In this document: one piece after another, positions 21,238 through 63,643 of the stretch | How the letters are laid out: every line of letters begins with the position of its first letter | Numbering within the stretch: the stretch's first letter is position 1 | From: Methanohalophilus sp. | GTDB lineage: Archaea > Halobacteriota > Methanosarcinia > Methanosarcinales > Methanosarcinaceae | Reading direction: 5' to 3' | DNA length: 64,000 nucleotides | NCBI RefSeq assembly: GCF_030156785.1 | Contig: NZ_JASGLW010000002.1 | Span: 62,001-126,000, forward strand | Notes under the pieces: model-generated | What the model was told of the DNA's origin: nothing | What the model saw: only the letters and a program-made list of their open reading frames with translations | The model's database searches: none | Made by a program: the position numbers and the translations under genes

Positions 21238-21348
21238 GACAAATCCCCCCGGTTTTCCATGTTTTTTCTTTGTTTTGATTAAATCTACTATGTTTTCTAA
21301 CATCTCTACTATTAAACGTTGGTGGATTACAGTACAATAAGGAAATTG

Positions 21349-36104: not shown

Positions 36105-36248
36105 ATGTCCAACTCCTTCACCGTGTCAGTATGTGACATAGTTACACAGTGTTATATTTAAGTTTTTTGTTTGTAATTTCAAAATTTGGTTTAACCAGAT
36201 GCTGTGCAGGCAAATGTATTATATATTTTTATATTCCTCAGTCCATTC

Positions 36249-36827
36249 ATGGAAAAGTTGAAGATACTTGTTATCAACAATTACGGGCAGTTTTGTCATC
36301 TGATTCATCGCACCGTCCGCGATCTGGACATGGAGACAGAAATCATTCCCAATACAACTCCAATAGATGAAATCCACGCAATGGAGCCGGACGGATTAAT
36401 TTTGAGCGGTGGTCCAAGCATGGACCGGATTGGTCTTTGTAGTGACTACGTAAAACAAATTGATCTTCCTATTCTTGGCATCTGTCTCGGGCACCAGTTA
36501 ATAGCTCTCTCTTTCGGGGGAAGCACCGGTTCAGGGAAATATGGCGGCTATGCTGATGTTGATGTTGAAATCCTCGAAGAAAATGATATCCTGAAAGGTC
36601 TGGGTCCAAAAATTACGACGTGGGCATCTCATGCAGATGAGGTTACAGTCATGCCTGAAGGATTCATATAGCTTGCACGCTCGGATATATGTGAGGTGGA
36701 AGCCATGAAGCATCCTTATAAACCAATTTATGGTGTACAATGGCATCCTGAAGTTGCACATACCAAAAGTGGTGAGGCATTATTCCACAATTTCTTCAGT
36801 GTGTGTGAGCAATATAAAAAGAGCTGA
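36249..36827 (+). CDS. guaAA: GMP synthase glutamine amidotransferase subunit, with an in-frame TAG at codon 141
   Basis: This class I glutaminase of 192 residues supplies ammonia to the separate GMP synthetase subunit. ATG 36249 starts [15 protein letters not shown]. The nucleophile Cys is in [17 protein letters not shown]. The frame reaches VTVMPEGFI, meets TAG (36669-36671), and continues [20 protein letters not shown], then [15 protein letters not shown] with the catalytic His and Glu, to TGA 36825-36827. Without readthrough the catalytic His-Glu pair is missing and the enzyme cannot work. The full length is that of the archaeal A subunit. Relatives place Glu, Lys or Val at the TAG position. 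No other guaA copy is in the window. Confidence 0.93.
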
Positions 36828-45723: not shown

Positions 45724-46716
45724 GTGCTATCTGTTTATCTCATGACACTGCTTTTAATTCCTGCCTTGATCCTAATGATTATTGTAGGATATTATATCTT
45801 TGTACCTCTTGATGTGCGCAAATACAGGCAGGACATTCGCCTCTCACAACGGTGGAGACATCTCCTGCTGGATATCCTGCTTTACGCGCTACCAATGTCA
45901 ATTGTTTACGCACTGGTGCGTCTGCAGGATGTTATAAGCGAGGCAGTTGGAATCCCTGCAGGTCAGAATTATGCGCGTTACATTATGATTATTGAAGGGA
46001 ACAAAGTAAGTCTTATTCAGGAGCTTGCTACTCCTTTGTTGACATATATCAGTGGATTTTTCTATCTTTTGATGTTTCCGTTTTTATTGGTATTTACCTT
46101 CTTGCTCCTGCTATACTTACAACGTTACAGGGCAATCCAGGAATTTGTTGTGGCATTCATCCTGATATACATAGTTGCATTTCCATTCTATGTATTGTTC
46201 CCAGTTCAAGTTACAGGCTATACACTAGCATGCGTTACTCCGTTGCTCTACAACCTGAGCCCTATCATAGCACAGGGGGTGCGAATAGTTGATCCCACTC
46301 TCAACAATTGTTTTCCGAGTCTTCATGCGGCTCTTTCCATAATGGCAATGCTGGTTGTCCTGCATAATGTGGATTCAAGGCGTTACCGTGTATTCTCAGT
46401 TGTTGCAACTGTGGTTATTCTGTTTACTATACTCTATCTTGGCATCCACTGGATTACTGATATGATTGGTGGAATCCTCCTTGCATTTATCTGCTGTTTT
46501 GTGACATTTCGCTACAGTGATTCCATGTTTGCTTTTTATCGGTTTCTGGTAGCTAGGATTGCTTACCATCTGCGCAAGCCCACTGTTCCCTGTGTTAATT
46601 GCAATGCACGTATAAAAGTAAACTCTGATTTCTCTTGTCCCCACTGTGGGATGCATTATGGGAATCCGATGAAAATATCAGCGGTTGTGGATCGCTTTAA
46701 GAAATTCTTTACTTAA
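45724..46716 (+). CDS. PAP2-family membrane phosphatase with a C-terminal zinc ribbon
   Basis: This membrane protein of 330 residues starts at GTG 45724, 11 bases after GGAGG; ATG 45742 gives 324. About six helices are present. The phosphatase signature is split as usual: CFPSLHAALSIMAML and LYLGIHWITDMIGGIL carry the catalytic His residues. Lipid phosphate or polyisoprenyl phosphate is the likely substrate. After the last helix there is a zinc ribbon PCVNCNARIKVNSDFSCPHC, which is unusual for this family. The gene borders IS copy A and converges with the flippase-like gene. Confidence 0.85.
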   Translation: MLSVYLMTLLLIPALILMIIVGYYIFVPLDVRKYRQDIRLSQRWRHLLLDILLYALPMSIVYALVRLQDVISEAVGIPAGQNYARYIMIIEGNKVSLIQELATPLLTYISGFFYLLMFPFLLVFTFLLLLYLQRYRAIQEFVVAFILIYIVAFPFYVLFPVQVTGYTLACVTPLLYNLSPIIAQGVRIVDPTLNNCFPSLHAALSIMAMLVVLHNVDSRRYRVFSVVATVVILFTILYLGIHWITDMIGGILLAFICCFVTFRYSDSMFAFYRFLVARIAYHLRKPTVPCVNCNARIKVNSDFSCPHCGMHYGNPMKISAVVDRFKKFFT

Positions 46717-47737
46717 GCATCCGGTTCACAAGTACGGTGTCACGGAGTATCTTGAAACTTACAAACCCGCCTACAAGCAGGTTCATGTAATATGTAAATG
46801 CGCGCCAGGAAATAACAACAATCCCCAGTACATATGTTGGTACAAAAACCGAAAAGAGTGTTGTTGCACATAGTTCAGCCACACCGCTCGAACCAGGTGT
46901 GGTAGGTATAATCACAACTATCATCAGGAGTACCTGGGCTGCATATACGACCAGTCCCAATGGTTCAACATTTAATCCAATAAGGATTACAGGAAGCATT
47001 GAAAATTCAACAATCCAGAAGAATAAGGTGCATATTATGCCTTTCAACAGTCCTATTTTTCCTTTGCTGAGGATGTAGTAAATACTGTCGTGAAATTCTT
47101 CTAGTTCAGTATCGATCTTTTCTGAAAGGTTACAAAAAAATGTTTTCCTTTTTTCACCAAATGCATTTTCACATCTTTTAACAATCCATTGAATTGCTCG
47201 TCTTGTGTGCATTGGTTTCCATATGGCATATAACAAAATTCCAAGAATAAAAAAGAGAAATACTTCTCCTGCTATTATAATTACATCAAAGTTATGATCC
47301 GCTGTAATATCTCTGAATAGGTAGAGTGCAAAGGGGGCAGCTAACAGAATGATAATTGCGTCCAGAACCCTTTCACCAAGAACGACTGCTGTAGCACTTC
47401 CAATTGGCATATTATTGTTATTGAGAAGATGGATCCTGAGGGGTTCACCACCTATTGAAGATGGGGTAATTGAAGCCAGAAAAGTACTGGAAGTGACAAT
47501 TTGAATGGCGTTCGTTAGTCCAATCCTGTACCCGAGAGCTTTTGACAAGACACTTGTCCGCAATCCCCATACTGCATAAGAACTGAGATGCAGTACTATT
47601 GCCAGTACTATGTAGAACGGTTTTATGTTGCGTATGCTTTCAAGGGTGTTGGCATCAAAGGTATAAATCAGGACTCCGGCCATCACAGTCAGGCTTATCA
47701 GAAATGATAATGCCATCCACTTGGTTGTTTTCTTCAT
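46709..47737 (-). CDS. Flippase-like membrane protein (UPF0104 / LPG synthase membrane domain)
   Basis: This protein of 342 residues has about eight helices of the lysylphosphatidylglycerol-synthase transmembrane family, without the aminoacyl-transferase domain. Typical segments: WGLRTSVLSKALGYRIGL, then STFLASITPSSIGGEPLRIH (conserved Pro/Gly/Glu-rich loop) and VVIIPTTPGSSGVAE. Such proteins are thought to move lipid-linked intermediates across the membrane. With the neighbouring PAP2 phosphatase and glycosyltransferase it suggests a lipid-linked sugar or envelope lipid module. Confidence 0.8.
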   Translation of the reverse strand: MKKTTKWMALSFLISLTVMAGVLIYTFDANTLESIRNIKPFYIVLAIVLHLSSYAVWGLRTSVLSKALGYRIGLTNAIQIVTSSTFLASITPSSIGGEPLRIHLLNNNNMPIGSATAVVLGERVLDAIIILLAAPFALYLFRDITADHNFDVIIIAGEVFLFFILGILLYAIWKPMHTRRAIQWIVKRCENAFGEKRKTFFCNLSEKIDTELEEFHDSIYYILSKGKIGLLKGIICTLFFWIVEFSMLPVILIGLNVEPLGLVVYAAQVLLMIVVIIPTTPGSSGVAELCATTLFSVFVPTYVLGIVVISWRAFTYYMNLLVGGFVSFKILRDTVLVNRMLK

Positions 47738-47827
47738 GGTACCCTAGGTCAAGATAACTTCTCATTCAGCAATACAGACCTTTAATCCGCATGGTGCGGG
47801 GCCAGTTAGAAATAAAAGGCTATGCAT

Positions 47828-48958
47828 TTATATTATTTGGTCATCTGCCAAGTGTTCCATAATTTTTCGCAATCTTGTAGCTCCTTCCAGCTCTGATGCA
47901 AGGGTTGCAAATTTTTTTGGACCAGCCAATTTCCCGGCTATAGCATATCTTATCCTGTACAATACTTCTTCTGCACTGGCATCATAATTCATCCGGAAAC
48001 CGCACTCTTGTTTTTCCAATCCGTGGGCATTATTCTGTTGCTCAGCATGGTCTTTGTCAGGGAATGAAATTACTGGTATTCCAAATGTAAGAGCTTCCAT
48101 CATGGTGGTGTGCCCACCTGGAGCGATTACCACATCCGAACCCTTTAGGTATGGGTATTGGTCTGGAACAAAAGGGAGCATGGTAACATTCTCTGGTACC
48201 TCTCCAAAATCTTCGGCTTTGATTCCTGGTCCGGTAAGCATGGTGTAATTGATTTTGGAATCCATTTTAGCAGCTTTCAAAATATTTAAAAAGATAGGTT
48301 TGCGATACCCAAAACCTCCTACCAATGAGAGGACATGAGGCTTTGGAAGCTCTTCTGCCTAAACTTCGTCTGGTTTTTTCGCAGGCAGGGGGCCGGTGTA
48401 AAGTACTTTTTCCTGTATTTTTTTTTCAAAATTAAGATTAAGCTGACAGATTGTATGTGGTATCGGGAAATCGGGGACTATTATGTGATCAACCTTTCTG
48501 AAGACTGCATTGTAAAACAGCTTTGCAATTTTTCCGAGTATGCGAAGAATAAACCCGTCTTTGAAGAATTCTTCCATGTTTGATTGGTTTACCATAAGAC
48601 AGACAGGGATATGCTATTGCAGAGCCGACAAGGTTCCAAGGTAATAGCTGTCAGAAAGAACCACATCAGGCTTTTCATTTTTGATCATTCTCATAACTCT
48701 GAATAATCCGCGGATCTGTCTGAGCTTCAAACTTTCAATGATTGAAGTTTTCATATCAAGTGTTCCGCTATCCCCTACAAGCCGGATTTCGGGGGGGATG
48801 GGAATAACCCTAAATCCATTTTTCCGGATCAGTTCTGCGGAGTATCCGTAGGCACCAAAAACGACCTTATGGTTTTCATTTTCAAACTCTTTCCCGGCAG
48901 CCATGCTGCGAGCTGTGTGACCCAACCCTTCTCCACAGACAAAAATGAAAACTTTCAT
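47828..48958 (-). CDS. MurG-like glycosyltransferase with two in-frame TAG codons (115 and 200)
   Basis: This GT28-type glycosyltransferase has 376 residues if both TAG codons are read. ATG 48958 starts MKVFIFVCGEGLGHTARSMA, the first Rossmann half. TAG at 48614-48616 follows DSYYLGTLSALQ; the same frame goes on to KDGFILRILGKIAKLFYNA and VDHIIVPDFPIPHTICQL. A second TAG at 48359-48361 follows LPAKKPDEV, and the frame continues HVLSLVGGFGYRKPIFLN and DVVIAPGGHTTMMEALTFG (nucleotide-sugar site) to TAA 47828-47830. All three segments are in one frame with no TAA, TGA or shift. Without readthrough the sugar-nucleotide domain is lost. The acceptor is probably a membrane lipid. Confidence 0.88.
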
Positions 48959-49114
48959 AGGAAGCCTCTTTTGTATGGATAAAGTTTTTTGTTTTAATAA
49001 GTTGCCTTTACATCTTGCACCATTAGTATATCCTATCAAATATACTATCTAATGGGCTATACCACAAATAGATTTGAAAAAAAAGGAAAAAACAAAACCA
49101 TGAGTAAAAAATTT

Positions 49115-49798
49115 TCAGGTAAATATTTCCCTTGCAGATTCTATCAGATCCTCCAGCTGTTCAATTGGAATCCCTATGATCATTTCACTTTTCTGGATGC
49201 CGGCATGTTTACGGCTTCCTGTACATCCCACAGTAACTCCAGGTGCTCCATAGAGGTATGGGTAGGCTATGCCATCTGCACAAAGACTCTGGATGCCAGC
49301 AAAGCTTGTTTTTACCCTTCCACCATACTTGCGAATCAATGCCTGAGATATGCACATTATCTGCTCAGGATTAGCAATGATTACAACCACGTCTGGCATT
49401 ACCTTCGCCTTTTCAAGAGGAGCATAGACAATTGCCTTTATAGACCCAGCTGGGACAGTGGGAACCTGCTGCATGGTACGTCTTGCTGCATTCAGGGTAC
49501 TGAAACGACCAAGTCTATAATAGAGATCTCCACTTGCTAGCGCATTACTCATCTCACAGAGGCCCATGGCTGCAGCCCCACCATTGCACTTCTGATCATC
49601 TACCAAAGTGTAAAATTGAGTACCCTTTCTTCTGACTTCATCTATCATCTGGCAATGTCTTGTAGACTCTTTTAGCCTTTCAATTTCTTCTGGGATTTCA
49701 TGTGTATCTGGAATCAATGATACTGCTACAGGGGAAGTTTCCAAATTGAGTATTCTGATTAGCTCTTCTCCAAATTCGTTAACTTCTTCGATTTCCAT
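49115..49798 (-). CDS. DUF169 family protein
   Basis: This protein of 227 residues belongs to the DUF169 group common in methanogens. Conserved parts: LNLETSPVAVSLIPDTHEIP, then DDQKCNGGAAAMGLCEM with Cys residues, AYPYLYGAPGVTVGCTGSRK and IGIPIEQLEDLIESA at the end. Several Cys (HCQM, KCNGG, LCEM, GCTGS) could bind a metal or cluster. The biochemical role is unknown. It is the outermost gene inside the IS-flanked block and is read toward the glycosyltransferase. Confidence 0.8.
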   Translation of the reverse strand: MEIEEVNEFGEELIRILNLETSPVAVSLIPDTHEIPEEIERLKESTRHCQMIDEVRRKGTQFYTLVDDQKCNGGAAAMGLCEMSNALASGDLYYRLGRFSTLNAARRTMQQVPTVPAGSIKAIVYAPLEKAKVMPDVVVIIANPEQIMCISQALIRKYGGRVKTSFAGIQSLCADGIAYPYLYGAPGVTVGCTGSRKHAGIQKSEMIIGIPIEQLEDLIESAREIFT

Positions 49799-50002
49799 TT
49801 TAATTCAGCTCCACTTAAGTTAAATAAACAGTTCTAAATATGTTTGAATAGTGATCCACAGATGTTTTATCTACATCTTCTTCGATTTAAGGAACCATCT
49901 ATTCAAAAAGCCTCTCAAACTATATTCCAATTTAGAGGTATTGGACTTATTATACAGCTTTGAATAAATCCAATATTTTTTACACTTTATTATATAGCCG
50001 GT

Positions 50003-50360
50003 TTCAAAATATATGTAAATGCGACATCTCCTAATTATATTTTGGGGATATTGAATGAATTTTAGATAACTTTCTGATGAACAATGGGAACTTATCAAAC
50101 CTTTCCTATTACCACAGCCAATAACTGGTAGGAGAATTAATGACCGCAATGTCGTAAATGGTATCCTCTTTGTTTTAATTATAGGGTGTAGATGGGGGGA
50201 TATACCAAATGAACCAGTAGTGAACGATTCGCATGGTTGAAGATGGGATTTAGAAGATTAGCAAGTACATATGAAAGGTGCAATGTAGTTTTCAAGGGAT
50301 TGCTGGATATTGCATGTTTCATTTTATGCTGGAAAAAGGTATAGGAGGAAGGAGTTGTGA
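50003..50360 (+). mobile_element. IS5-type transposase remnant, copy B (internally deleted)
   Basis: The plus strand encodes SDEQWELIKPFLLPQPITGR, then INDRNVVNGILFVLIIGCRW (the N-terminal domain), then jumps to TYERCNVVFKGLLDIACFIL, the usual C-terminal end of IS5 transposases. The catalytic middle is gone, leaving about 350 bases. The first about 190 bases repeat copy A in inverted orientation. Confidence 0.8.
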
Positions 50361-50413
50361 AACAGGTTCATCAATAAACTTATAACCTATTTGGGAAAAT
50401 ATGTTTGATTTAA

Positions 50414-51193
50414 ATGATTGCTTTAATTTCTTTTTTGGTAGTAATACTATTCTCACGTATAATAATCAGAATTGGTTCAGTTGCCCTTGAGATGACGGGA
50501 TTATCTAAAGATCTTTCATCTTTTCAGGCTCAATCCGCTTTCTCCGGAGCAGGTTTCACAACATCTGAATCCGAATACGCAGTGTCACATCCGGCAAGAA
50601 GGAAGATAATTAGAATTTTGATTCTTCTTGGAAGTGGTGGATTGGCTTCCACTATAGCTACACTTGTTTTTACATTTGCAGGAAATACTTTTCAGGAAGC
50701 ACAAATTAACTTAATTTTCCTTATTTTAGGTTTGATTCTGATTTATCTATTCTTTAGATCCATCTATATTGAAAAAATAATGAGAAAAGCCATCAAGTTA
50801 TTGCTCCTCAAATTTACTTCTTTAGCAGTTTATGACTATCAGCAGCTTCTTGGATTGACTAAAGGATACTCTGTTGGTGAGATTAAAGTTAAGGAGAATA
50901 AATGGCTACAAAATAGAATGTTAAAAGATTTGAAGTTGAATATGGAAGGGGTTTTGGTTCTGGCAATCTACAGGAAAATTGCTGGGGAAGAAAAATTTAT
51001 AGGAAGTCCGGATGGGGATACGGAATTAATGGCAGGAGATCTATTGATCTGCTATGGCCCACATGAAGTAATAGCAAGTTTGTCTGAAAGGGATAGGGGT
51101 ATTGAAGGGGATAAAAGACACATAGAAGAGATCGAAATGGCTGAAATCAGAAAAATAGATGAAATTCAAAGAAAAACTGAGATGGTAATCTAA
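50414..51193 (+). CDS. Membrane protein with a TrkA-C domain
   Basis: This protein of 259 residues has three or four N-terminal membrane segments (IALISFLVVILFSRIIIRIG, IILILLGSGGLASTIATLVF-like and LIFLILGLILIYLFFR), with a pore-like loop SAFSGAGFTTSESEYAV resembling the selectivity region of K+ channel or Trk proteins. The C-terminal RCK/TrkA-C domain starts about residue 150 (KGYSVGEIKVKENKWLQNRM and TELMAGDLLICYGP), ending in a charged tail. It may be a ligand-gated ion channel or a regulator of one. It is sandwiched between two IS remnants. Confidence 0.65.
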   Translation: MIALISFLVVILFSRIIIRIGSVALEMTGLSKDLSSFQAQSAFSGAGFTTSESEYAVSHPARRKIIRILILLGSGGLASTIATLVFTFAGNTFQEAQINLIFLILGLILIYLFFRSIYIEKIMRKAIKLLLLKFTSLAVYDYQQLLGLTKGYSVGEIKVKENKWLQNRMLKDLKLNMEGVLVLAIYRKIAGEEKFIGSPDGDTELMAGDLLICYGPHEVIASLSERDRGIEGDKRHIEEIEMAEIRKIDEIQRKTEMVI

Positions 51194-51640
51194 AAATCCT
51201 TCTGATGAAGCATGGGGATTTATAAACTCTGTTCTATCATCACAGCCAATAACTGATAGGGAAAGAGCTGTTGGTCGAAATCTCATCAATGATCTTTGTT
51301 TTAATTACATCGTGTAGATGGAGAGATGTGCCTAAAACTTATGGATTTTTCAGTAACTGCTTGGAGGAGATTAAGGCGCTGGTCAGAAGAAGGGTATATG
51401 GAATAGAATTATAGAGTCACTTAGAGATTCAGCTTCTCAGCAAAGGTAAGCTATCACTTGAAACAATTTGTTTAGATAGTAGTTTCACTGTAACTAAAAA
51501 GGGATACATGGGACGGCTTACAATGAATCTAAGAAGAGAAAAGGCATAAAGATTCATGGCTTTGTTAGCTGTGAAGTTTTTCCACTAAGCTTAGCATTTC
51601 TGCTAGAAAAAGGTATAAGAGGGGGGTCAGGTTCGTTATT
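51194..51640 (+). mobile_element. IS5-type transposase remnant, copy C
   Basis: Weaker, frameshifted matches to the same transposase are visible in order: SDEAWGFINSVLSSQPITDR, RWRDVPKTYG, LDSSFTVTKKGY (the catalytic Asp region) and KKRKGIKIHGFVSCEVFPLS (the middle domain). Many stops and shifts interrupt it, so it is older than copies A and B and retains the middle part that copy B has lost. Confidence 0.7.
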
Positions 51641-51715
51641 AACAATAAGATAAAATGTAATGAAATATGATATATTAATTGAGATTTTCAATTACGAAAT
51701 CTCAGGTGAGTTATT

Positions 51716-52402
51716 ATGAGAATAAGTATACATATTTTACTTTTACTTCTAGTTATGTTTGGATCAATTACGGGAGTGCAGGCAGCTAAATACTTTGTTT
51801 GTGATGATGACTGTCCGGAACCAGAGGAAGGTTATCGTTTAATCGGTTGTACTTTGTGTGTCAATTACGCAGTTGAAAATGAAACCGGAGTACATGTTCC
51901 CTTTGGTTCCAGTAACGGTTATGTCTATATCCAGTCCGTGACCGAGAAAGATGCCAATGGGGATGTGATTTATGATGAGATTCTCTCATGTGATTACTGG
52001 AAAGAGGGTGTATCTCTACCGGAAGACGCTATAGTTGATGATGAGCGTTTTCTTCTTTTGGAGGCATTGAAAACTTACAACCGGAATCTTGACGCACTTC
52101 CGGGGTTTGTGCACAGTTTTCTGGGTAACGAAATAATACATGTTTATGCTACAATGCCCAATGGTAATGAGCAGGAATATGGGGTTATCACAGAATCCGG
52201 GATGATTGTTGAAGGTGGTAATTGGATTGACTTTGATGGAGATGGCAACTACGATGTCTGGCAGGATGATGGAATCACACCTACCCTTGAACTTACCATA
52301 GATGCGGAAGGCAACATCTCATACAAAGGGCTGACTACCGGGACAATTATCAAGGAATTCATCGTTGATCTTGGTATGCTGGTTTATAGTATCTTCACAT
52401 GA
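51716..52402 (+). CDS. Secreted protein of unknown function
   Basis: This protein of 228 residues has a clear signal peptide (MRISIHILLLLLVMFGSITG, cleaved near VQA-A). The mature part starts with a Cys-rich segment (FVCDDDCPEPEEGY, then IGCTLCVNYAV) that could bind metal or form disulfides. It then has an acidic body with a calcium-site-like DFDGDGNYDVWQDDG near residue 180. There is no anchor at the C-terminus other than a mildly hydrophobic end. I do not recognise the family. GGTGAG lies 8 bases before the ATG. Confidence 0.65.
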   Translation: MRISIHILLLLLVMFGSITGVQAAKYFVCDDDCPEPEEGYRLIGCTLCVNYAVENETGVHVPFGSSNGYVYIQSVTEKDANGDVIYDEILSCDYWKEGVSLPEDAIVDDERFLLLEALKTYNRNLDALPGFVHSFLGNEIIHVYATMPNGNEQEYGVITESGMIVEGGNWIDFDGDGNYDVWQDDGITPTLELTIDAEGNISYKGLTTGTIIKEFIVDLGMLVYSIFT

Positions 52403-52605
52403 TTGTTTTTGCTCATGGTTTCCGTGAGATTCTTTTTTCTTTTGATTTTTGGCTATGTAGAAATTCCTTCTTTAAACACTGTTTACGTGATGGATGAAGC
52501 ATATGAATCTTTTTTGTTTGGGCAAGGGTTTCTAAGATCCCTCCAAAATAATTTACCAGAAAAGTCCCAGAAAGCAATTATATCTAGAAGACGATGTAGA
52601 GGGAG

Positions 52606-53310
52606 ATGTCTCCTAATTTACGCATTATACTTGTCGAGCCACTTTATCAGGGAAATGTTGGATCTGTTGCCCGCTCAATGAAGAATTTCGGTTATAATGA
52701 TCTTGTGCTAGTTAATCCTTGTCCTCTTGAAGGAGAAGCAAGAGCTATGGCGTCCCATGCACAGGATTTACTTGAAAGTGCAACAATAGTATCCAGTCTG
52801 AAGGAGGCAATCGGTGATGCAAATCTGGTAATTGGGACCAGTGGGATATCAGGAATCAAAGAGGATGAACATCTTCGTGTTCCGCTATACACCCCTAAAC
52901 AAATGAAGGAACATATTGAGAATGCTGACGGAACGATTGCAGTTTTGTTTGGCAGGGAAGATAATGGCTTGTCAAAGGAAGAACTGAAACAGTGTGACAT
53001 GATACTAACAATTCCCACAACGGATGATTATCCCGTGATGAATATATCCCATGCGGCAACTGTCGTTCTTTATGAAATGAGCGATATGGAAGATCCTTCA
53101 AGGCCTATTGCGAACAGGTTTGATCTGGAACTCCTTTATGAGCACCTAAGAGAAATGCTGGATGACATAGGACATCCGGAACATAAGAAAGAAAAAACAT
53201 ACCTGATGCTCAGGAGAATATTCGGAAGGGCTGTCCTAACACCTCGTGAAGTTCAAACGCTGAGAGGTATTTTCAGGGGAATCCAGAAATCAAATGAAAA
53301 AGATGAATAA
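52606..53310 (+). CDS. SPOUT RNA 2'-O-methyltransferase, TrmJ type
   Basis: This TrmH-family enzyme of 234 residues most resembles TrmJ, which methylates the ribose of nucleotide 32 in tRNA. The knotted SAM-binding fold is shown by IILVEPLYQGNVGSVARSMK, then DLVLVNPCPLEGEARAMA, TIAVLFGREDNGLSKEEL and ILTIPTTDDYPVMNISHAAT. A C-terminal helical extension of about 70 residues (HKKEKTYLMLRRIFGRAVLT) is typical of TrmJ. GAGGGAG is very close to the ATG, so initiation context is unusual. A promoter lies in the 200-base gap before. Confidence 0.85.
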   Translation: MSPNLRIILVEPLYQGNVGSVARSMKNFGYNDLVLVNPCPLEGEARAMASHAQDLLESATIVSSLKEAIGDANLVIGTSGISGIKEDEHLRVPLYTPKQMKEHIENADGTIAVLFGREDNGLSKEELKQCDMILTIPTTDDYPVMNISHAATVVLYEMSDMEDPSRPIANRFDLELLYEHLREMLDDIGHPEHKKEKTYLMLRRIFGRAVLTPREVQTLRGIFRGIQKSNEKDE

Positions 53311-53374
53311 CTACTCAAATAAGATAAATTTAAATAGATTCTGATGAACGATAATGCTGGTACAGGGGTTAAAA

Positions 53375-55504
53375 ATGATTGAGGAAAAGTGGGTAAACAA
53401 GTTCAGGCAATTTTTAAAAACATATAATGAAGAAGATATTCTTCGATTAGTAGATAATTATCCTGAGACTAAAAGTGTTTCTGTAAATTATGATAACTTG
53501 GTCAAATCGGTATCTGAGCTTGCAACAGAACTGCTTCAAAATCCTGATGAAATAATACCAGCTGCTGAAGAAGCACTCAGGCAGGAGCTTAAGATACATT
53601 TTGTCGACATTCCAATAAGCGGATCTGATTCTGAAGAAGAAATGGATCTAAAAGATGTCAAAGTTCGTTTTGAAAACCTGCCCCACAAGATCCCGATCCG
53701 TGACCTGCGAAGCAAACACCTTCTCAAATTCATCGCAGTAGAAGGAATGATCCGAAAGGCTACGGAAGTAAGGCCAAAGATCACAGATGCTGCCTTCTTG
53801 TGCACTAACTGCGAGCATATATTCAATATTCCACAAACAGGTACTAAATTTGTTGAGCCAAAAGAATGTGAGAATGTAAGTTGTGAACGCCGTGGACCTT
53901 TCAAGCTTCTGATTGATAAATCTACTTTTGTTGACGCTCAGAAACTCCAGATCCAGGAATCACCCGAAAGCCTGAAGGGTGGAAACCAACCACAGAGCAT
54001 TGATGTGGATGTGGAAGATGAAATTGCGGGCATCGTCAAACCTGGTGATCGGGTAGTTATAAACGGAATACTGCGCTCTCACCAGCGAACTCTCAGGGAA
54101 GGAAAATCCCTATTTTACGATCTGGTGCTTCATTGTAATTCCCTTGAATATGTTGATCGTGAGTTTGACGAACTTAACATTAGCCCAAAAGACGAAAAGG
54201 AAATAATTCAATTGAGCAAGGATCCTCATCTTTATGAAAAGATTATTAAATCTATAGCACCTTCAATTTTTGGATATGAGGATATTAAGGAAGCACTTGC
54301 TCTGCAGCTCTTTTCCGGTGTTCCGAAGGTGATGCCAGATGGGTCAAGGGTTCGTGGAGATATCCATGTGCTTCTTGTTGGAGACCCTGGTATCGCAAAA
54401 AGTCAGTTGCTTCGATACATGGTTAAAATATCACCCAGAGGTGTATTTGCATCAGGGAAGAGCGCGTCATCAAGTGGTTTGACTGCGGCTGCCGTGCGTG
54501 ATGATTTGGGAGATGGGCGCTGGACTCTTGAAGCCGGTGCACTTGTGATGGCTGACATGGGTATTGCTGCAGTGGATGAAATGGATAAGATGAGCAGGGA
54601 AGATAAAAGTGCCCTCCACGAAGCAATGGAACAGCAAACAATATCCGTTGCAAAAGCGGGAATTCTTGCCACACTCAAGTCACGATGTGCACTACTTGGA
54701 GCTGCAAATCCTAAATACGGAAGATTTGATCGTTACGAGGGGCTTGCAGAGCAGATTAATATGCCTCCTGCCCTGATATCAAGATTTGATCTTATTTTTA
54801 TCCTGCTTGATGTTCCCGAATCAAAGAGAGACGGGGATATAGCAAAACATATTCTTCGTTCCCACTTTGCAGGAGAACTCAATGAACAGATGAGTAGGGA
54901 TCCTGCATCAGAGATTACAGAAAAACAAGTAGGAGAGCAGATGAAAATTATTCTTCCCCCCATTGAAAACGAAATGCTTAGGAAATATGTAGCCTATGCG
55001 CGCCGTAATATTTTTCCGGTTATGGAAGACGAAGCACGGGAACACTTGGTTAACTATTATCTTGATCTGAGGAAAATGGGCGAAAACAAGGACTCTCCGG
55101 TTCCAGTTACTGCAAGACAACTTGAAGCTCTTGTGAGGCTTGCCGAAGCCAGTGCAAGAATAAGGTTGAGTAATAAAATAACCCTTGAGGATGCAAAACG
55201 GACAACCAGAATCAGCATGTCCTGCATGAAACAGGTTGGTGTTGATCCCGATACAGGTGCTTTTGATGTTGATGTCATTGCCACAGGTACCAGTAAGAGC
55301 CAGCGTGACAAGATTCATGTCCTGATGGATGTGATTCGGGATGTGGGAGATCGTAACCCCGGAGGAAAAGCACCTCTTGAAGAAGTATATGTGGCTGCCG
55401 AAGCAGAAAACATAAGCAGGGACCAGGCAGAAGAACTCATAAGGAAAATGAGGCAGAAAGGAGACCTTATGTCGCCGGATAAAAAACATATTAAGATTGT
55501 TTAA
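53375..55504 (+). CDS. mcm: Replicative DNA helicase MCM
   Basis: This AAA+ helicase of 709 residues unwinds DNA ahead of the replication fork. ATG 53375 is chosen because GGGG lies 7 bases before it (ATG 53354 has none). The N-terminal domain has the zinc motif FLCTNCEHIF, then ECENVSCERRG. Walker A is LLVGDPGIAKSQLLRYM. Walker B is AAVDEMDKMS, and the arginine finger is in LISRFDLIFI. A C-terminal winged helix follows (LMDVIRDVGDRNPGGKAPLE). No intein. DUF424 starts 10 bases after the stop. Confidence 0.97.
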   Translation: MIEEKWVNKFRQFLKTYNEEDILRLVDNYPETKSVSVNYDNLVKSVSELATELLQNPDEIIPAAEEALRQELKIHFVDIPISGSDSEEEMDLKDVKVRFENLPHKIPIRDLRSKHLLKFIAVEGMIRKATEVRPKITDAAFLCTNCEHIFNIPQTGTKFVEPKECENVSCERRGPFKLLIDKSTFVDAQKLQIQESPESLKGGNQPQSIDVDVEDEIAGIVKPGDRVVINGILRSHQRTLREGKSLFYDLVLHCNSLEYVDREFDELNISPKDEKEIIQLSKDPHLYEKIIKSIAPSIFGYEDIKEALALQLFSGVPKVMPDGSRVRGDIHVLLVGDPGIAKSQLLRYMVKISPRGVFASGKSASSSGLTAAAVRDDLGDGRWTLEAGALVMADMGIAAVDEMDKMSREDKSALHEAMEQQTISVAKAGILATLKSRCALLGAANPKYGRFDRYEGLAEQINMPPALISRFDLIFILLDVPESKRDGDIAKHILRSHFAGELNEQMSRDPASEITEKQVGEQMKIILPPIENEMLRKYVAYARRNIFPVMEDEAREHLVNYYLDLRKMGENKDSPVPVTARQLEALVRLAEASARIRLSNKITLEDAKRTTRISMSCMKQVGVDPDTGAFDVDVIATGTSKSQRDKIHVLMDVIRDVGDRNPGGKAPLEEVYVAAEAENISRDQAEELIRKMRQKGDLMSPDKKHIKIV

Positions 55505-55514
55505 GGGGATAAAC

Positions 55515-55805
55515 ATGTATTTAAAAATCCACAAACATGGAGATGGGATGGTACTCGCAGCCTGTGATAAAGAGCTAATCGGATCCAAGCTCAAGAAAGA
55601 TAAAATTTGCGTTGAAATAACGGAAAGTTTCTATATGGGCGACATTGTGTCTGAAGAAAAACTAATCGAAGAACTCAAATGTACTACAAATGCCAATCTT
55701 TTCGGAGAAAAAGTTATTAAATGTGCAATAAAATGTGGCATGGTTGATCATGGCACCGTAATAATTATTGATGGCGTTCCCCACGTCCAGATATACAGAG
55801 TATAA
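55515..55805 (+). CDS. DUF424 family protein
   Basis: This small archaeal protein of 96 residues has the DUF424 pattern: LKIHKHGDGMVLAACDKELI, then ICVEITESFYMGD, then LIEELKCTTNANLFGEKVIK and GTVIIIDGVPHVQIYRV. The family is widespread in archaea and often lies near translation or replication genes; structural work suggests an RNA-binding-type fold, but the role is unknown. AGGGGAT is 5 bases before ATG 55515. It is part of the mcm operon. Confidence 0.85.
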   Translation: MYLKIHKHGDGMVLAACDKELIGSKLKKDKICVEITESFYMGDIVSEEKLIEELKCTTNANLFGEKVIKCAIKCGMVDHGTVIIIDGVPHVQIYRV

Positions 55806-55820
55806 GGCAAAGGGAAAAAA

Positions 55821-56462
55821 ATGAGTGAAAATAAAGAAAGTGCAATTAAAACACTTGATAAGGAAGGGTTAATCAAAGCAGTCATTGAAAAACATGACCG
55901 TCTGATCAATGAATATAACGCTGAATTTAGTTCCCTTGAAGGAAGAGTAAAGGAATTAAAAGAAAAAGTTGCTGCTGCCAAAAAGGAACATGAAGATGCC
56001 ATGCAGAGAATGGATGTCCTCAGGGAGAAAAGGCAGCAGCTATACTATCAGGCAAAGAAATTGCTTGAAAATTTGGAGCCTGGTACTATTGAAGACAGAC
56101 TCATCCATTCAATTCATGATGACATCGAGGAACTCAAAAGGCTAAAAGAACCTGATTCAGAGGCCGAATTACGCAGAAATCTTCTGGACAAGATTAACTC
56201 TATAGCAGTTGGAGAAACAAAAGAGCAGGTAATCCATTTAGTTGAAAAAATCAAAGGAGCAGAAGAAGCCACAATCGAGCTTCTTTCCCTCGAAACAAAC
56301 CAGAATGGTTTTTCCAAAGAGTATAAAAACATGGTTGAAGAACTCAAAAAGGATGAACCTCGATATAACTGGCTTCAAAGGCGCATTGCAAGTCATACCG
56401 AGGCTCGCAATTATTGGGAAAAACAACTTGAAGAAATGCAGAAGTCGGAGGAGAATGTATGA
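55821..56462 (+). CDS. Coiled-coil protein, first of a pair
   Basis: This protein of 213 residues is almost all heptad-like: FSSLEGRVKELKEKVAAAKK, then MDVLREKRQQLYYQAKKLLE, then a middle linker and WLQRRIASHTEARNYWEKQL. No catalytic domain is visible. It resembles the COG1340 group of archaeal coiled-coil proteins, some of which carry misleading phosphatase names. Its stop overlaps the start of the second coiled-coil gene (ATGA), so the two chains are probably made together and may form one complex. Confidence 0.75.
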   Translation: MSENKESAIKTLDKEGLIKAVIEKHDRLINEYNAEFSSLEGRVKELKEKVAAAKKEHEDAMQRMDVLREKRQQLYYQAKKLLENLEPGTIEDRLIHSIHDDIEELKRLKEPDSEAELRRNLLDKINSIAVGETKEQVIHLVEKIKGAEEATIELLSLETNQNGFSKEYKNMVEELKKDEPRYNWLQRRIASHTEARNYWEKQLEEMQKSEENV

Positions 56463-57376
56463 AAGATCCGGCCTCAATGACTGAAAGGGAACTCAAGGAA
56501 ACGGTGAATAAATTCCGTAATGAGATAGCTCATAACGAAAAGATCCTAAAGAATGTGTTCAGGGAGCTTAAGTTACACCGTACCAATATAAGTGAGCTCA
56601 AAGAAAAGAGAGACGAATTGAACGCAAAGGTTAGGGAACTTGCAGCTCTTGCCCGGAAAGAAAAGGAGGCAAGGGATAAAGTCAATGCCAGGATTTCTGA
56701 GATAAAAGGAAAAAGACAAGTTGTTCTGAAACAGAAAGACAAACTTACAGGAGATATTTCAAGTTTCAAGGAAAAACGCGACCGATACAATCAGGAATCA
56801 AAGGGAAGCGTAGAATCTCTTGCCAAAGCATATACCAAGGAAGTGGAAACATTTCTGAATGCAGACATCCCACTCAAACATGAGAAAGATGTTTTTGAAA
56901 GAATTATACAGCTTGAAAAAAGACTCGAAGCTGCACTTATTGCCGATGGCCTTCATAAGGAAGTCATGAGTGTATATGATAGTGCAAAAGAAGTTGAAAA
57001 ACAAGGATATGAACTTGGTAACCATATCAAGGAGCTTGCGGAGGAGTCGCAGAAATATCACCTTAAGATGATAGATTTATACAACCAGATTGATGAAATC
57101 CGAAAAGAAGCTGACTTGTGCCACTCACAGATGAAAGAGACCTATGCAGTGCTATCTCCTATAAGGGACAAGATCGATCCACTGAAGAAGAAGATCGAAT
57201 CCCTCAGGGAAGACCTTGGTGTTTATCTTGACAAACTTAACGAAATACAACTGGAAAAAGACGAGATGAAGAAGGATGAACAGCACAGTGCTGCAAAAGA
57301 ACGTCTTGAGAAAACCGGTAAAATGAGTTTGGAAGACCTTAAGATTTTGATGGATAAAGGGGATCTTAAGCTTTAA
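56459..57376 (+). CDS. Coiled-coil protein, COG1340 type, second of a pair
   Basis: This long coiled coil of 305 residues contains an N-terminal helix pair (NEKILKNVFRELKLHRTNIS, ELKEKRDELNAKVRELAALA), a mid-section FLNADIPLKHEKDVFERIIQ, which is the most conserved part of the family, and a return helix ending KTGKMSLEDLKILMDKGDLK. It could bend back on itself like SMC or prefoldin-type arms. The operon mcm-DUF424-coiled coil-coiled coil hints at chromosome-related work; this is inference. Confidence 0.8.
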   Translation: MKDPASMTERELKETVNKFRNEIAHNEKILKNVFRELKLHRTNISELKEKRDELNAKVRELAALARKEKEARDKVNARISEIKGKRQVVLKQKDKLTGDISSFKEKRDRYNQESKGSVESLAKAYTKEVETFLNADIPLKHEKDVFERIIQLEKRLEAALIADGLHKEVMSVYDSAKEVEKQGYELGNHIKELAEESQKYHLKMIDLYNQIDEIRKEADLCHSQMKETYAVLSPIRDKIDPLKKKIESLREDLGVYLDKLNEIQLEKDEMKKDEQHSAAKERLEKTGKMSLEDLKILMDKGDLKL

Positions 57377-57902
57377 TCCGGCACCATTTAAGGTATATTC
57401 CAGTCAGGCACAGGATTGTAGATGTAATTCCAAACCCCGGTATGACTCCGGGGTTTTCGGAGTTTGTACTGTTATTTTGCATATCATTTGAAATAACAGT
57501 ATCATTATCATAATCAGGATCAGGCGGTAATTCAGGATCTATATACTGAAAAATTGGTTCGAAGGATACAAGCTCACCTTCCGAACCATAATAGATTTGC
57601 TTTAGGGTTATACTTAAAATGGTATTGTTATCACGTACGTAATCAAGTGTTTCATTTTCTCCAAGTATGTCTTCTTTTACGGACACACCGTCTCTCTGTA
57701 GTGAAATCCACACTCTATTATTTTCTAAATTTACATATTTTACCGTAAGGGAATAATTTTGTTGCAATTGCTTTGTGTGTCCTGTACGGATGTTTAGTGA
57801 AGTTCCATTCTCAAGAACAAATTCTTCTGCAAAAGTGGTAAAAGAAAACGAATATAGGCTAATTACAAAAAAACAAAGTAGTGCTATAGTTTTTGTCTTC
57901 AT
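57366..57902 (-). CDS. PGF-CTERM surface protein with one S-layer-type domain
   Basis: This exported protein of 178 residues starts at ATG 57902, with signal peptide MKTKTIALLCFFVISLYSFS. One domain (residues about 30-120) follows the pattern QQNYSLTVKYVNLENNRVWI, matching the repeated domains of the larger protein at 14955-16100. A Pro/Asp/Asn linker leads to GVIPGFGITSTILCLTGIYL, a PGF-CTERM signal with a terminal basic tail. It is probably lipid-anchored after archaeosortase A processing. Its 3' end overlaps the coiled-coil gene by 11 bases. Confidence 0.75.
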   Translation of the reverse strand: MKTKTIALLCFFVISLYSFSFTTFAEEFVLENGTSLNIRTGHTKQLQQNYSLTVKYVNLENNRVWISLQRDGVSVKEDILGENETLDYVRDNNTILSITLKQIYYGSEGELVSFEPIFQYIDPELPPDPDYDNDTVISNDMQNNSTNSENPGVIPGFGITSTILCLTGIYLKWCRIKA

Positions 57903-57910
57903 ATCAATCC

Positions 57911-58879
57911 TCAGACATATATACATCGACCTGAGATTAGCGTTTCTTTTGAACCATCTTCCATTTCAAGAATCAGACCGCCATCCTCGGATATTCCAAT
58001 TGCTTTTCCCTCATACATTTTTGTAGGGGTTAGAAGACGGACATGCTTTCCAAGTGTATCAGCAAGTCCTATCCAGCTATTCAGTATATTGTCAAAGGTC
58101 CCTGTGTTGAACTTTATGTACTCTTGTTCAAGAACAGAAAGAAGAGACTGGACAAATGAAATACGATCTATCTTTTTCCCAAGCTCATATTTGATCGTTG
58201 TGGAAGTCTCCCTCAAATCTTCCGGGAAGGATTCAAGATCCATATTGCCATTGATACCAATACCAATAACTATGTAATTAATGCTCTCTGCCTCTGCTTC
58301 CATTTCGGTGAGAATGCCACAGATTTTCTTACCATTTACCAACACATCATTAGGCCACTTCAAGGAGGCATTAATGCCAACTTTTCGAAGTGTTTCTGCC
58401 ACTGCAACTCCTGCCATAAGGGTTAATCGTGATGCATGGGAAGGGGGTATTGAAGGCTTTAGGATTACAGACATCCATATACCACCTTTGGGAGAACACC
58501 AGTCACAACCCCTGCGACCACGTCCACTGTTCTGAATTTCTGCAATTACAACAGTTCCATCTGAAGCTTCACTGCCGATTTCTTTGGCAACATCATTTGT
58601 TGACTGGACTTTTTCATAGTAAACTATTTTTTTGCCGATTAAATTTGTATCAAGACCATATGTAATTAATTCCGGATAAAGAAGATCCGGTTCTGCTTGA
58701 AGGACATAACCATTTCCTGGAATAGACTCTATTAAATATCCACGTTGCTGGAGTGTCTGGACATATTTCCAGACCATTGTTTTGGAAACGCCAATAGAAT
58801 TTCCTATTTCAACCCCGGATACCGTTTGTTTGTTAGCATCTTTCAGTATCCTGATGACCTCTAACATTTTTTCTTGCAA
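57911..58879 (-). CDS. birA: Biotin--protein ligase / biotin operon repressor-type (TTG start)
   Basis: This enzyme of 322 residues attaches biotin to the carrier domain of pyruvate carboxylase. The N-terminal winged helix (KMLEVIRILKDANKQTVSGV, then SIGVSKTMVWKYVQTLQQRG) allows DNA binding and self-control, as in BirA. The ligase part shows biotin-loop GRGRRGCDWCSPKGGIW, LKWPNDVLVNGKKICGILTE and the C-terminal capping domain. The start is TTG 58879, with GGGG 7 bases before it. It lies 40 bases downstream of pycA, whose partner pycB carries the biotinylated lysine. Confidence 0.93.
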   Translation of the reverse strand: MQEKMLEVIRILKDANKQTVSGVEIGNSIGVSKTMVWKYVQTLQQRGYLIESIPGNGYVLQAEPDLLYPELITYGLDTNLIGKKIVYYEKVQSTNDVAKEIGSEASDGTVVIAEIQNSGRGRRGCDWCSPKGGIWMSVILKPSIPPSHASRLTLMAGVAVAETLRKVGINASLKWPNDVLVNGKKICGILTEMEAEAESINYIVIGIGINGNMDLESFPEDLRETSTTIKYELGKKIDRISFVQSLLSVLEQEYIKFNTGTFDNILNSWIGLADTLGKHVRLLTPTKMYEGKAIGISEDGGLILEMEDGSKETLISGRCIYV

Positions 58880-58919
58880 GAAAATCCCCTATTGTAATAT
58901 GATTTGCAAGATTAAAAAA

Positions 58920-60416
58920 TCATTCGTTCTTGTTTTTCATATTAGCGGATTTTGCTGCATTGATATAGGAACTAACAGCAGCGCTGATTGCAGCTACTTT
59001 TTTACTGTTATCTTCAAGAGCCATTGCGAGGGTATCAGATTCTCTGCGTTGACATTCAGCATTTTCAGCAACAATATCAAGGATGTTGTAATCGTCAATG
59101 AAGTGAGTTGTTAGGTTCCCTTTTATGAATTCTTCATGTGACATCACTGCACGGTGGAATGGGATATTGGTTTTGACACCAACCACAACATACTCAAAAA
59201 GAGCACGCTTCATCCTTGCAATTGCTTCGTCCCTGTCTCTACCCCATGTCTGGAGCTTGGAGATCATGGAATCATAGAATGGAGTAATAGTATAACCAAC
59301 ATGCACTCCGCTGTCAACTCTGACTCCTGGACCGCCTGCAGATCTGTAGCGAAGTATTTTTCCGGGTGAAGGATTGAAATCATTGAGAGGATCTTCTGCA
59401 TTTATCCTGCATTCGATTGCTGAACCGTTTATCTTGATATCTTCCTGTCTGATAGATAGTTCTTCTCCACAGGCAACTTTCAGCTGCTCTTTCACAATAT
59501 CAATACCAGTCACAAGCTCGGTGATACCATGTTCTACCTGAAGACGTGTGTTAACTTCAAGGAAATAGTAATCTCCTTTTGAGTAAAGGAATTCCACTGT
59601 ACCTGCGTTCTCATAACCAATTGACTTAGCAGCTTTGATCGCAGTATTGCCCATTTCTGCACGGAGTTCTGGAGTCATAATAGGTGATGGTGCTTCTTCA
59701 ATCAGCTTTTGGTGTCTCCGCTGGATGGAACATTCCCTGTCAGAGAGATAGAGACAATTACCATGGCTGTCGGCAAGTATTTGCATCTCGATGTGTCGGG
59801 GTTCGTCAAGGTATTTCTCAATGAAAACAGTGGAATCACCAAATGCAGATTTTGCTACTGATCTAATGGATGATATGGAATTTTTTAGTTCCTCATCGGA
59901 ATTAACTACTTTCATACCAATACCGCCGCCACCAGCGGATGCTTTGATCATAAGCGGATATCCAAGTTTATCTGCAACTTTTTGTGCCGATTCATAATCT
60001 TCTATTGGTTTGCCATTACTAGGCACAACTGGGACACCGGCTTTTATCATGGCTTCACGTGCCGCTATTTTACTCCCCATTTGTTTGATGACTTCACTGG
60101 AAGGACCAATGAAGGTAATTCCCTCCTCTTCACACCTTCTTGCAAAGGTTGCATTTTCCGAAAGAAAACCGTATCCCGGATGAATTCCTTCAGCACCTGT
60201 CTTTTTTGCTACATCAAAGATTGCATCCATGTTGAGATAACTTTTGGAAGTTGGAGCCGGACCAATTAAATATGCCTCATCTGCATATTTGGTAAAGAGA
60301 GCATTGCTATCGGCTTCAGAGTAAACTGCAACAGTGGCAATATCCAGTTCTTTACAGGCGCGCATAATCCTGATAGCAATTTCGCCTCTGTTTGCAACAA
60401 GTACCTTGTTGAACAT
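58920..60416 (-). CDS. pycA: Pyruvate carboxylase subunit A (biotin carboxylase)
   Basis: This subunit of 498 residues carboxylates biotin with bicarbonate and ATP. Motifs: [39 protein letters not shown], the ATP-grasp glycine loop [55 protein letters not shown] and [14 protein letters not shown]. The separate A and B subunits are typical of methanogens, where the enzyme makes oxaloacetate for assimilation. pycB lies 21 bases upstream and birA follows. The C-terminal tail is rich in Lys and Asn. Confidence 0.96.
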
Positions 60417-60437
60417 ATTTATTCCTCAAATTGCTGC

Positions 60438-62162
60438 TCATTCGATTATCATCAATACTTCATCAGTGGTAACTGTGTCACCTTCGGAAACAAGAATTTC
60501 CTTAACGGTGCCATTATGGGGTGAATGGATAGTATTTTCCATCTTCATGGCTTCAATCACACATATCTTGTCACCTTCCTGAACGACGTCTCCAACCAAT
60601 ACATCGATGGAAAGTACCATGCCTTGCATGTGGCTTGTGACTGCTCCTTCGGAAATAGTTGCAGGTTTCTGGACAGCACTTTGGGTTACTGTAATGGCAC
60701 CATCAATTGGTTCAACATGGACATCAAATATTTCACTGTCAACTTCAACTTTAAAGTGGGTTGGTATGGCAACTTCAGCCGGTGCTGCGGTAGTGTTCGC
60801 AACTGGAACCGGGGCAAGGATTTCTTCCTCAGCTTCACCACGCAGGAATTTAGGAGCAATGGATGGATAAAGAGCATAGGTAAGAATATCTTCTTCCTTG
60901 CTAACAATTCCCATCTCTTCGGCTTCTTTTTTGATTTTTTCGTATTCGGGTTCGAGAAGATCTGCAGGTCTAACTGTAATTGGTTTTTCATCACCAATGA
61001 TGGTAGTTATCATTTCCTCACTGATAGGAGCAGGGGGTCTTCCATAGAGTCCGCGCACATAATCCTTGACTTCCTTGGGAATTACTTTGTAGCGTTCTCC
61101 CATGAGAACGTTGAGTACAGCCTGAGTACCTACTATCTGGCTGGTAGGGGTTACAAGCGGAGGGTATCCAAGTTCTTCACGCACACGTGGCATTTCTTCG
61201 AGAACTGCATCATATTTATCAAGGGCGTTTTGTTCTTTTAACTGGGATACAAGGTTGGACAGCATGCCCCCTGGAATCTGGTATACCAGAACATTGGTGT
61301 CAACCTGTTCGGATATAGGATCAAGTATTCCCTTGTATTCATCCTTGATAGCTTTAAAATAAGCAGCAGCTTCACTAAGGGGTTTCAGATCTATTCCTGT
61401 ATCGAATTTTGTATTTTTAAGGGCTGCAACAGTTGATTCGGTTGGTGGCTGGGACGTTCCGCCAGCTAATGGTGAAAGTGCGGTATCGAGAATATCAACA
61501 CCGGCTTCACAGGATGCCATGTAGCTCATCGGGGCCATTCCGGAAGTACAGTGACAATGCAGGGCCACTGGCAAACCCACTTCCTTTTTGAGTGCACTTA
61601 TGAGTTCATAGGCTTCATGTGGAGCAAGGAGCCCTGCCATGTCTTTGATACAGATAGAATCACATTCCATTTCCGCAAGTTCAGTAGCAAAAGCAACGTA
61701 CTTTTCCACAGTGTGAACCGGGCTGATAGTGTAGCAGATAGTTCCCTGAACATGAGCACCCTGTTTTTTAGCTACCTTTATGGAAGTTTCCATGTTTCTG
61801 ATATCATTTACCGCATCAAATATGCGGAAGATATCAATACCGTTTTCATAAGCCTTAATCACGAATTTTTCTACAATATCGTCCGAATAATGCCTGTAGC
61901 CTACAAGGTTCTGCCCTCTTAATAGCATTTGAGCATAGGTATTATTCATGTGTTTTTTTAGTTCCCGGAGACGTTCCCATGGGTCCTCGTTGAGGTATCG
62001 GATGCAAGTGTCAAATGTTGCACCTCCCCACATTTCAAGGGAATAGTAACCAACCTCATCCAACTTTTCAATTATGGGAAGCATGTTGCGGGTTCGCATT
62101 CTTGTTGCAAGAAGCGACTGATGTGCGTCCCTCAGAATTGTTTCAGTTATTTTGACCTTCAT
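60438..62162 (-). CDS. pycB: Pyruvate carboxylase subunit B (carboxyltransferase and biotin carrier)
   Basis: This subunit of 574 residues transfers CO2 from biotin to pyruvate and carries the biotin. The TIM barrel has ETILRDAHQSLLATRMRTRN, MWGGATFDTCIRYLNEDPW and VALHCHCTSGMAP with metal residues, plus the conserved Lys region CIKDMAGLLAPHEA. A linker rich in Ala, Pro and Val leads to the biotinyl domain with VIEAMKMENTIHSPHNG, the Lys being the biotin site. AGAGGT precedes the ATG by 7 bases. It is the first gene of pycB-pycA-birA. Confidence 0.97.
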   Translation of the reverse strand: MKVKITETILRDAHQSLLATRMRTRNMLPIIEKLDEVGYYSLEMWGGATFDTCIRYLNEDPWERLRELKKHMNNTYAQMLLRGQNLVGYRHYSDDIVEKFVIKAYENGIDIFRIFDAVNDIRNMETSIKVAKKQGAHVQGTICYTISPVHTVEKYVAFATELAEMECDSICIKDMAGLLAPHEAYELISALKKEVGLPVALHCHCTSGMAPMSYMASCEAGVDILDTALSPLAGGTSQPPTESTVAALKNTKFDTGIDLKPLSEAAAYFKAIKDEYKGILDPISEQVDTNVLVYQIPGGMLSNLVSQLKEQNALDKYDAVLEEMPRVREELGYPPLVTPTSQIVGTQAVLNVLMGERYKVIPKEVKDYVRGLYGRPPAPISEEMITTIIGDEKPITVRPADLLEPEYEKIKKEAEEMGIVSKEEDILTYALYPSIAPKFLRGEAEEEILAPVPVANTTAAPAEVAIPTHFKVEVDSEIFDVHVEPIDGAITVTQSAVQKPATISEGAVTSHMQGMVLSIDVLVGDVVQEGDKICVIEAMKMENTIHSPHNGTVKEILVSEGDTVTTDEVLMIIE

Positions 62163-62839
62163 GGAATACCTCTCTTTTTTAGCACATAAGCAAGATAAAA
62201 TGGTTAATGGCTAGAATTTAGCAGATTAAATTGTACCTAATTGAGCATTAACTTTTATGTACTTTCTGGTGGAAGTATATAAATGAAAAAGAAAAAAATG
62301 GATGCCTAAACACTTGAAATAATGTTAAGAAACAACTCGCAAATTGTGATAGTCTCGTTGCTGCAGTTCCTAAGATCGATGAAATTTTGTTTTTGAATCT
62401 ATTTGCTTCAACCGTAATTTCACTCATTTCGTATGCGTCAATGAAAGTATCCATTGATGATTAGGAAGTCAGGATGTTATCAGGTCTACTTTCATCAATT
62501 TTCAGCAGCAAAGTTGCATCGATTTTATCTTCGACAGTGTTCTCCTCAAAATCCACACTACTTTTGCATTTTCGGTCAGGACTTTAATGATATTGCAAAA
62601 CCGTTATTGAACCAAATATGTAAATACTCTACTTCATTTACAAAAAGACTTTTGATTAAGGATGGGAAATTGCATAAATGGGACTTGTATTGCAATAGAA
62701 TCTTCAAGATCATCGAGAAGTCCTGCATTGGAAGTTGCTGAAAGTGAAAAGCATAATATAAATATCAAAGTCATGAAAATAGCACCATACGCTTATATTA
62801 TTGCAACAAATGCAAAAAGATGATTTTAAAAGATTCAAT
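62163..62839 (-). pseudogene. pycB promoter region followed by decayed coding sequence
   Basis: The first about 80 bases hold the pycB promoter on the minus strand. The rest reads on the minus strand as broken protein-like pieces in different frames: AGLLDDLEDSIAIQVPFMQF, FVNEVEYLHIWFNNGFAISL, VEDKIDATLLLKIDESRPDN and MDTFIDAYEMSEITVEANRF. They are separated by TGA, TAA and frame changes. It looks like a gene in decay, but I cannot name a family. Confidence 0.4.
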
Positions 62840-63301: not shown

Positions 63302-63405
63302 TATTACAACTTACAGCAGATTCCTTAAAAAGATCTTTGCCTAAAATTAATGTCATTCGCAATTGATATATAAGAATAATTCAAGATCATTATATTAGGG
63401 TATAT

Positions 63406-63411
63406 GGAGGG
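63406..63411 (+). promoter_or_regulatory. Ribosome site deciding a TTG start
   Basis: GGAGGG ends 5 bases before TTG 63417 and 14 before the first ATG, so the zinc-ribbon gene probably starts at TTG. Confidence 0.6.
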
Positions 63412-63416
63412 TTTTT

Positions 63417-63626: not shown

Positions 63627-63643
63627 GTTTATCTCTTGCAACT

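Follow-up and report, generated by a model that had tools for sequence, protein, structure and literature searches.

Two in-frame TAG codons in a Methanohalophilus glycosyltransferase gene, very probably read as pyrrolysine

Results

The glycosyltransferase gene and its neighbours

The window, i.e., the whole 64,000-nucleotide stretch of Methanohalophilus sp. DNA that was analysed, carries a glycosyltransferase gene whose frame runs from an ATG at 48958 to a TAA at 47828 with two TAG codons, here called TAG1 and TAG2, as its sole internal stops. The features of the locus, in window positions, are as follows.

47828 to 48958, minus strand: glycosyltransferase gene, GT-B type (MurG/MJ1255-like), 376 codons from ATG to TAA if TAG is counted as a residue
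48614 to 48616, minus strand: TAG1, in frame, codon 115, placed by the structural model in a loop after helix 106-114
48359 to 48361, minus strand: TAG2, in frame, codon 200, placed by the model in the linker joining two Rossmann-like domains
47828 to 47830, minus strand: TAA terminator of the glycosyltransferase gene
46709 to 47737, minus strand: LPG_synthase_TM (flippase-like) membrane protein, downstream neighbour and possible pathway partner
45724 to 46716, plus strand: PAP2-superfamily membrane phosphatase, neighbour and possible pathway partner

The two TAGs lie 85 codons apart in one frame, as the original prediction had claimed, and the segment it marked, 48359-48616, is bounded exactly by TAG2 and TAG1. 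The frame can be aligned to its homologues over its length without a frameshift. The whole protein matches PF13528 (Glyco_trans_1_3) over residues 1-329 (50.5 bits, cut-off 25) and the GT28 C-terminal domain PF04101 over residues 239-328 (47.8 bits, cut-off 22); the segments before TAG1 and between the TAGs, each taken alone, match no Pfam model. To speak of normal GT28 domains on both sides of the stops is therefore loose: it is a single GT-B protein that is interrupted, and its GT28 C-terminal domain lies wholly past TAG2. A stop at TAG1 would presumably take away the entire nucleotide-sugar-binding half of the enzyme. With TIGR00661 (MJ1255/VC2487 subfamily) the score is 144.1 bits, under the curated cut-off of 195.9, and judged by sequence the protein resembles this subfamily without reaching membership. 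The AlphaFold model, for which 29 sequences served as input, has a mean pLDDT of 87.6, and a Foldseek search with it returned GT-B folds at TM 0.65-0.77, with the macrolide glycosyltransferases and CalG2 among them. Since the LPG_synthase_TM protein and the PAP2 phosphatase are encoded nearby, it is reasonable to guess that the enzyme helps to make a lipid-linked or surface glycan. The part of the window from 49115 to 64000, which begins beside the glycosyltransferase gene, is without a syntenic counterpart in the compared stretches of two congeners (G033 and G032), which may reflect either the breakpoint of a rearrangement or a block specific to the lineage.

Homologues and the two TAG columns

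Within the same family, 77 other genomes have homologues of the glycosyltransferase. The closest is that of G033 (76% identity), and those of six other congeners follow at 56-58%. A search of named genomes returned just two loci, both distant and from Methanosarcina. None of the intact homologues in these 77 genomes has a TAG, and no stop of any kind occurs inside the gene in the seven congeners. Frameshifts, TAA or TGA in relatives, which the original prediction had named as counter-evidence, were likewise not found in the seven congeners; TAA does occur in a few distant copies (G062 and G091 among them), and one G062 copy is a plain pseudogene with 2 TGA, 4 TAG and 1 TAA.

The comparison of both TAG columns with homologues, proposed together with the prediction, revealed columns that vary. 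Column 115 is not wholly free, because arginine or lysine occupies it in 23 of 28 homologues, with tyrosine (TAC) in G033. At column 200 lysine, threonine, isoleucine, arginine, asparagine, valine, aspartate and glycine are found, with asparagine (AAC) in G033, and its variability exceeds that of 94% of the columns. Considering the alignment and the model together, both sites look tolerated rather than needed, and a conserved active-site pyrrolysine of the MtmB type is not seen in this enzyme. A PYLIS search of positions 47500-49500 gave no match after either TAG, and no unusual RNA fold was found after TAG1 or TAG2; the positive control, MtmB of the same genome, was matched by PYLIS_1 with 103 bits. 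To our knowledge, PYLIS-type elements are not general for pyrrolysine genes.

Selection on the glycosyltransferase

The pairwise comparison with G033 yielded omega values of 0.109 before TAG1, 0.131 between the TAGs, 0.051 after TAG2 and 0.092 overall, each being an average over the entire time since the split from G033, and omega = 1 was rejected for every part (2dlnL of 58, 40 and 133, respectively). Purifying selection therefore persists after the TAGs as an average over this time, and the test of synonymous against non-synonymous change downstream of the TAGs, suggested at the outset, shows no relaxation. The median omega of 129 TAG-free genes is 0.071; among them the glycosyltransferase holds rank 0.64, and the other well-flanked TAG genes hold ranks from 0.07 to 0.61. 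Its dN is rather high (rank 0.82 among the TAG-free genes). Because synonymous sites were saturated, a branch-specific codon model (outgroup G032) gave no information, and amino acid counts were used instead: after TAG1, at columns fixed in the six other congeners, the Methanohalophilus sp. protein has 8 derived residues and that of G033 has 16, so there is no acceleration in the former.

Pyrrolysine machinery and TAG usage in the genome

The Methanohalophilus sp. genome (G000) measures 1.55 Mb in 19 contigs and is 94.6% complete; other members of the genus have about 1.8-2.1 Mb, and the GC content of the sampled stretches is 42-44%. The pyrrolysine cassette is complete, consisting of pylT, which encodes tRNA-Pyl(CUA), pylS, pylB, pylC and pylD, where PylC was missed by the Pfam N-terminal model and detected by the NCBIfam model. 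PylS is found in 8 of the 8 genomes of the genus that were searched. MtmB of G000 has the expected single in-frame TAG, and aRF1 is present as one full-length copy.

The comparison covered about 250 kb of G000, 280 kb of G033 and 200 kb of G032, and an internal stop in G000 was counted if at least 20 aligned columns with 40% identity flanked it on each side. Against G033 this gave 7 TAG, 0 TGA and 2 TAA, the two TAAs being adjacent in a single gapped alignment (G000:C9:42499-42508); against G032 it gave 7 TAG and no other stop, and the seven TAGs are identical in both comparisons. They are carried by a CbiQ-like transporter, Elp3, GMP synthase subunit A, a ModE/Mop-type protein, a CyaB homologue (class IV adenylate cyclase type) and, twice, the glycosyltransferase. 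Three of the other carriers lie in the window:

485 to 487, plus strand: TAG at codon 96 of the CbiQ-like transporter gene (200-976)
26533 to 26535, plus strand: TAG at codon 530 of elp3 (24946-26652), within the GNAT domain
36669 to 36671, plus strand: TAG at codon 156 of the GMP synthase subunit A gene (36204-36827), within the glutamine amidotransferase domain (22-198)

The in-frame TAGs are more than a chance find: across the sampled genome it is TAG, and not TAA or TGA, that is the stop inside conserved genes. In homologues, various residues (E, K, Y, R, N, I, H, Q) occupy the TAG columns, so that no particular ordinary amino acid is indicated. The original prediction regarded a double pyrrolysine as rare and hence special, which our data do not support: when 7-10 TAGs are distributed among the sampled genes in proportion to their length, the probability that some gene receives two is 0.17-0.33, so two TAGs in one gene are not improbable given how densely TAGs occur in this genome, nor are the sites conserved. 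The corresponding probability for the glycosyltransferase specifically is about 0.2%, a figure that applies to a gene picked for this very feature.

As a terminator TAG is nearly absent. The 161 orthologous ORFs end in 79 TAA, 77 TGA and 4 TAG calls, the latter all in short doubtful ORFs. In raw G000 sequence about 17-18% of stop triplets are TAG. Clear TAG terminators amount to about 1 in about 157 genes, the one being pylB. TAG appears to act as a terminator at least once, because pylB ends in TAG, 1 base before the start of pylC, in three congeners (L004:7362-7368); in several Methanosarcinaceae pylB is reported to end in TAG (PMC2933860). If TAG were always read as pyrrolysine, translation of pylB would run on into pylC and lengthen PylB by about 39 residues. 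Apparent conservation past the pylB TAG was rejected as evidence of pyrrolysine, as pylC begins 1 base later in another frame.

Internal TAGs are fewer in the congeners (2 in G033 and 1 in G032 versus 7 in G000), and genes with TAG seem to be more numerous in the smaller G000 genome than in these two congeners (pooled Fisher p = 0.019 in a post hoc comparison). In conserved genes of G033 (L038:5923, L039:7774) and G032 (L076:11286), in-frame TAGs stand at sites other than those of G000; the TAG sites turn over between species. TAGs a few codons from uncertain starts were left out of the count. They occur in a NosD-like gene (window position 21231; gene 19750-21303, minus strand) and in purC and radB (L067:15312; L065:7177), and align with sense codons in G033; either they lie upstream of the true start or they encode an N-terminal pyrrolysine.

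Discussion

Our analysis suggests, with a probability of roughly 87%, that a working GT-B glycosyltransferase is made from the gene and that both TAGs, having drifted in at tolerant sites, are translated as pyrrolysine. Very probably pyrrolysine is inserted at the TAGs and the gene is not a pseudogene, because the pyrrolysine cassette is at hand, other genes show the same TAG-specific pattern and selection on the gene is ordinary. On both counts the original prediction is supported: pylTSBCD are present, omega is far below 1 in all parts, and TAG interrupts other conserved genes. Neutral drift is the likely origin of both TAGs, because the sites are variable and lie outside conserved motifs. 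We thereby infer translation as pyrrolysine, enzyme activity and neutrality alike. The tRNA-Pyl(CUA), charged by PylS, would insert pyrrolysine at TAG1 and TAG2. As TAG almost never serves as a terminator in this lineage, a codon at a tolerant position could change to TAG without lethal effect, and the change could be fixed by drift. The loop after a helix (TAG1) and the interdomain linker (TAG2) would be such positions, and as both sites appear tolerant, the two pyrrolysines are probably passengers.

One could argue that the gene has recently lost its function, the TAGs being ordinary nonsense mutations so recent that no other damage has accumulated yet. Indeed, of the 78 genomes with intact copies G000 alone has the TAGs, the dN of its gene is rather high, pseudogenes of the family occur in other genomes (G062), and an omega averaged since the G033 split leaves room for a very recent loss. 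However, one-step nonsense routes in this gene lead to TAA in 62 cases and to TGA in 36 versus 33 to TAG, so that both stops would be TAG with a probability of about 6%; moreover, omega after the TAGs is far below 1, the entire frame is free of frameshifts, and the identical TAG-only pattern is seen in GMP synthase subunit A and elp3. Thus it is not likely that the gene is a young pseudogene.

It is about equally unlikely that decoding is ambiguous, giving a mix of 114-residue, 199-residue and full-length products whose ratio is set by the pyrrolysine supply, with a coupling to growth on methylamines. Termination may compete, given the single full-length aRF1 and a pylB that apparently stops at TAG, and competing or regulated use of UAG has been discussed (PMC3639795, PMC8211752). 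The near-absence of TAG terminators and the TAGs in housekeeping genes suggest efficient readthrough instead; besides, the TAGs are conserved in no relative and there is no sign of functional coupling. Still less probable is that the double TAG is a selected multiplicative control, by which the full-length enzyme would depend on pyrrolysine and a membrane or cell-surface glycan step would take place only during methylamine growth. An assembly or sequencing error is highly improbable: the assembly has several contigs (19), but errors would be expected to yield other stops besides TAG over about 250 kb, and also to disturb the frames.

If the TAGs of the glycosyltransferase are read as pyrrolysine, the double-pyrrolysine enzyme, together with the TAG-bearing genes of GMP synthase subunit A and Elp3, would add to the evidence for TAG as practically a sense codon in the genus, and standard annotation would split or truncate such genes. 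GMP synthase subunit A and Elp3 are expected to be essential, and the pyrrolysine cassette may be indispensable in G000; should housekeeping genes truly need pyrrolysine, the cassette would be required even off methylamines.

The methylamine methyltransferases MtmB, MtbB and MttB, of which MtmB occurs in the same genome, share with the glycosyltransferase an in-frame TAG, which in the methyltransferases is read as pyrrolysine. There the residue is catalytic and conserved and, in MtmB, followed by a PYLIS, none of which applies to our enzyme. Another comparison is with the 'Pyl code' of some archaea that Kivenson and others reportedly described by proteomics in Science in 2025, in which TAG is a general sense codon in many proteins. 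TAG would likewise be a sense codon in many proteins of G000, where the case is made from sequence and theirs from proteomics.

A similar path has been proposed for tRNA-His guanylyltransferase (Thg1) of Methanosarcina acetivorans, which according to the passage on it in PMC2933860 gained pyrrolysine by neutral evolution (Heinemann 2009). Both are non-methyltransferase genes with an amber codon in one species and homologues without it, as far as that passage describes Thg1 (PMC2933860). The traits of such a neutral case are found here: TAG is absent from intact homologues, the sites are variable, and purifying selection acts after the TAG. The amber site of Thg1 is described there as dispensable for activity, to which the glycosyltransferase sites may be likened from sequence and model; unlike Thg1, with its one TAG in that account, the glycosyltransferase has two (PMC2933860). 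Neutral candidates are also given in PMC3639795. In 'Ca. Methanomethylophilus alvus' 16 pyrrolysine proteins besides the methyltransferases are predicted, 1.6% of terminators are TAG, and a TAG mutation is reasoned to be tolerated where tRNA-Pyl is constitutive (PMC4153887). This reasoning fits the glycosyltransferase, even though 'Ca. M. alvus' belongs to another methanogen order, and TAG terminators seem to be no less scarce in the G000 lineage. We thus regard the glycosyltransferase as another instance of the neutral acquisition of pyrrolysine that has been published before.
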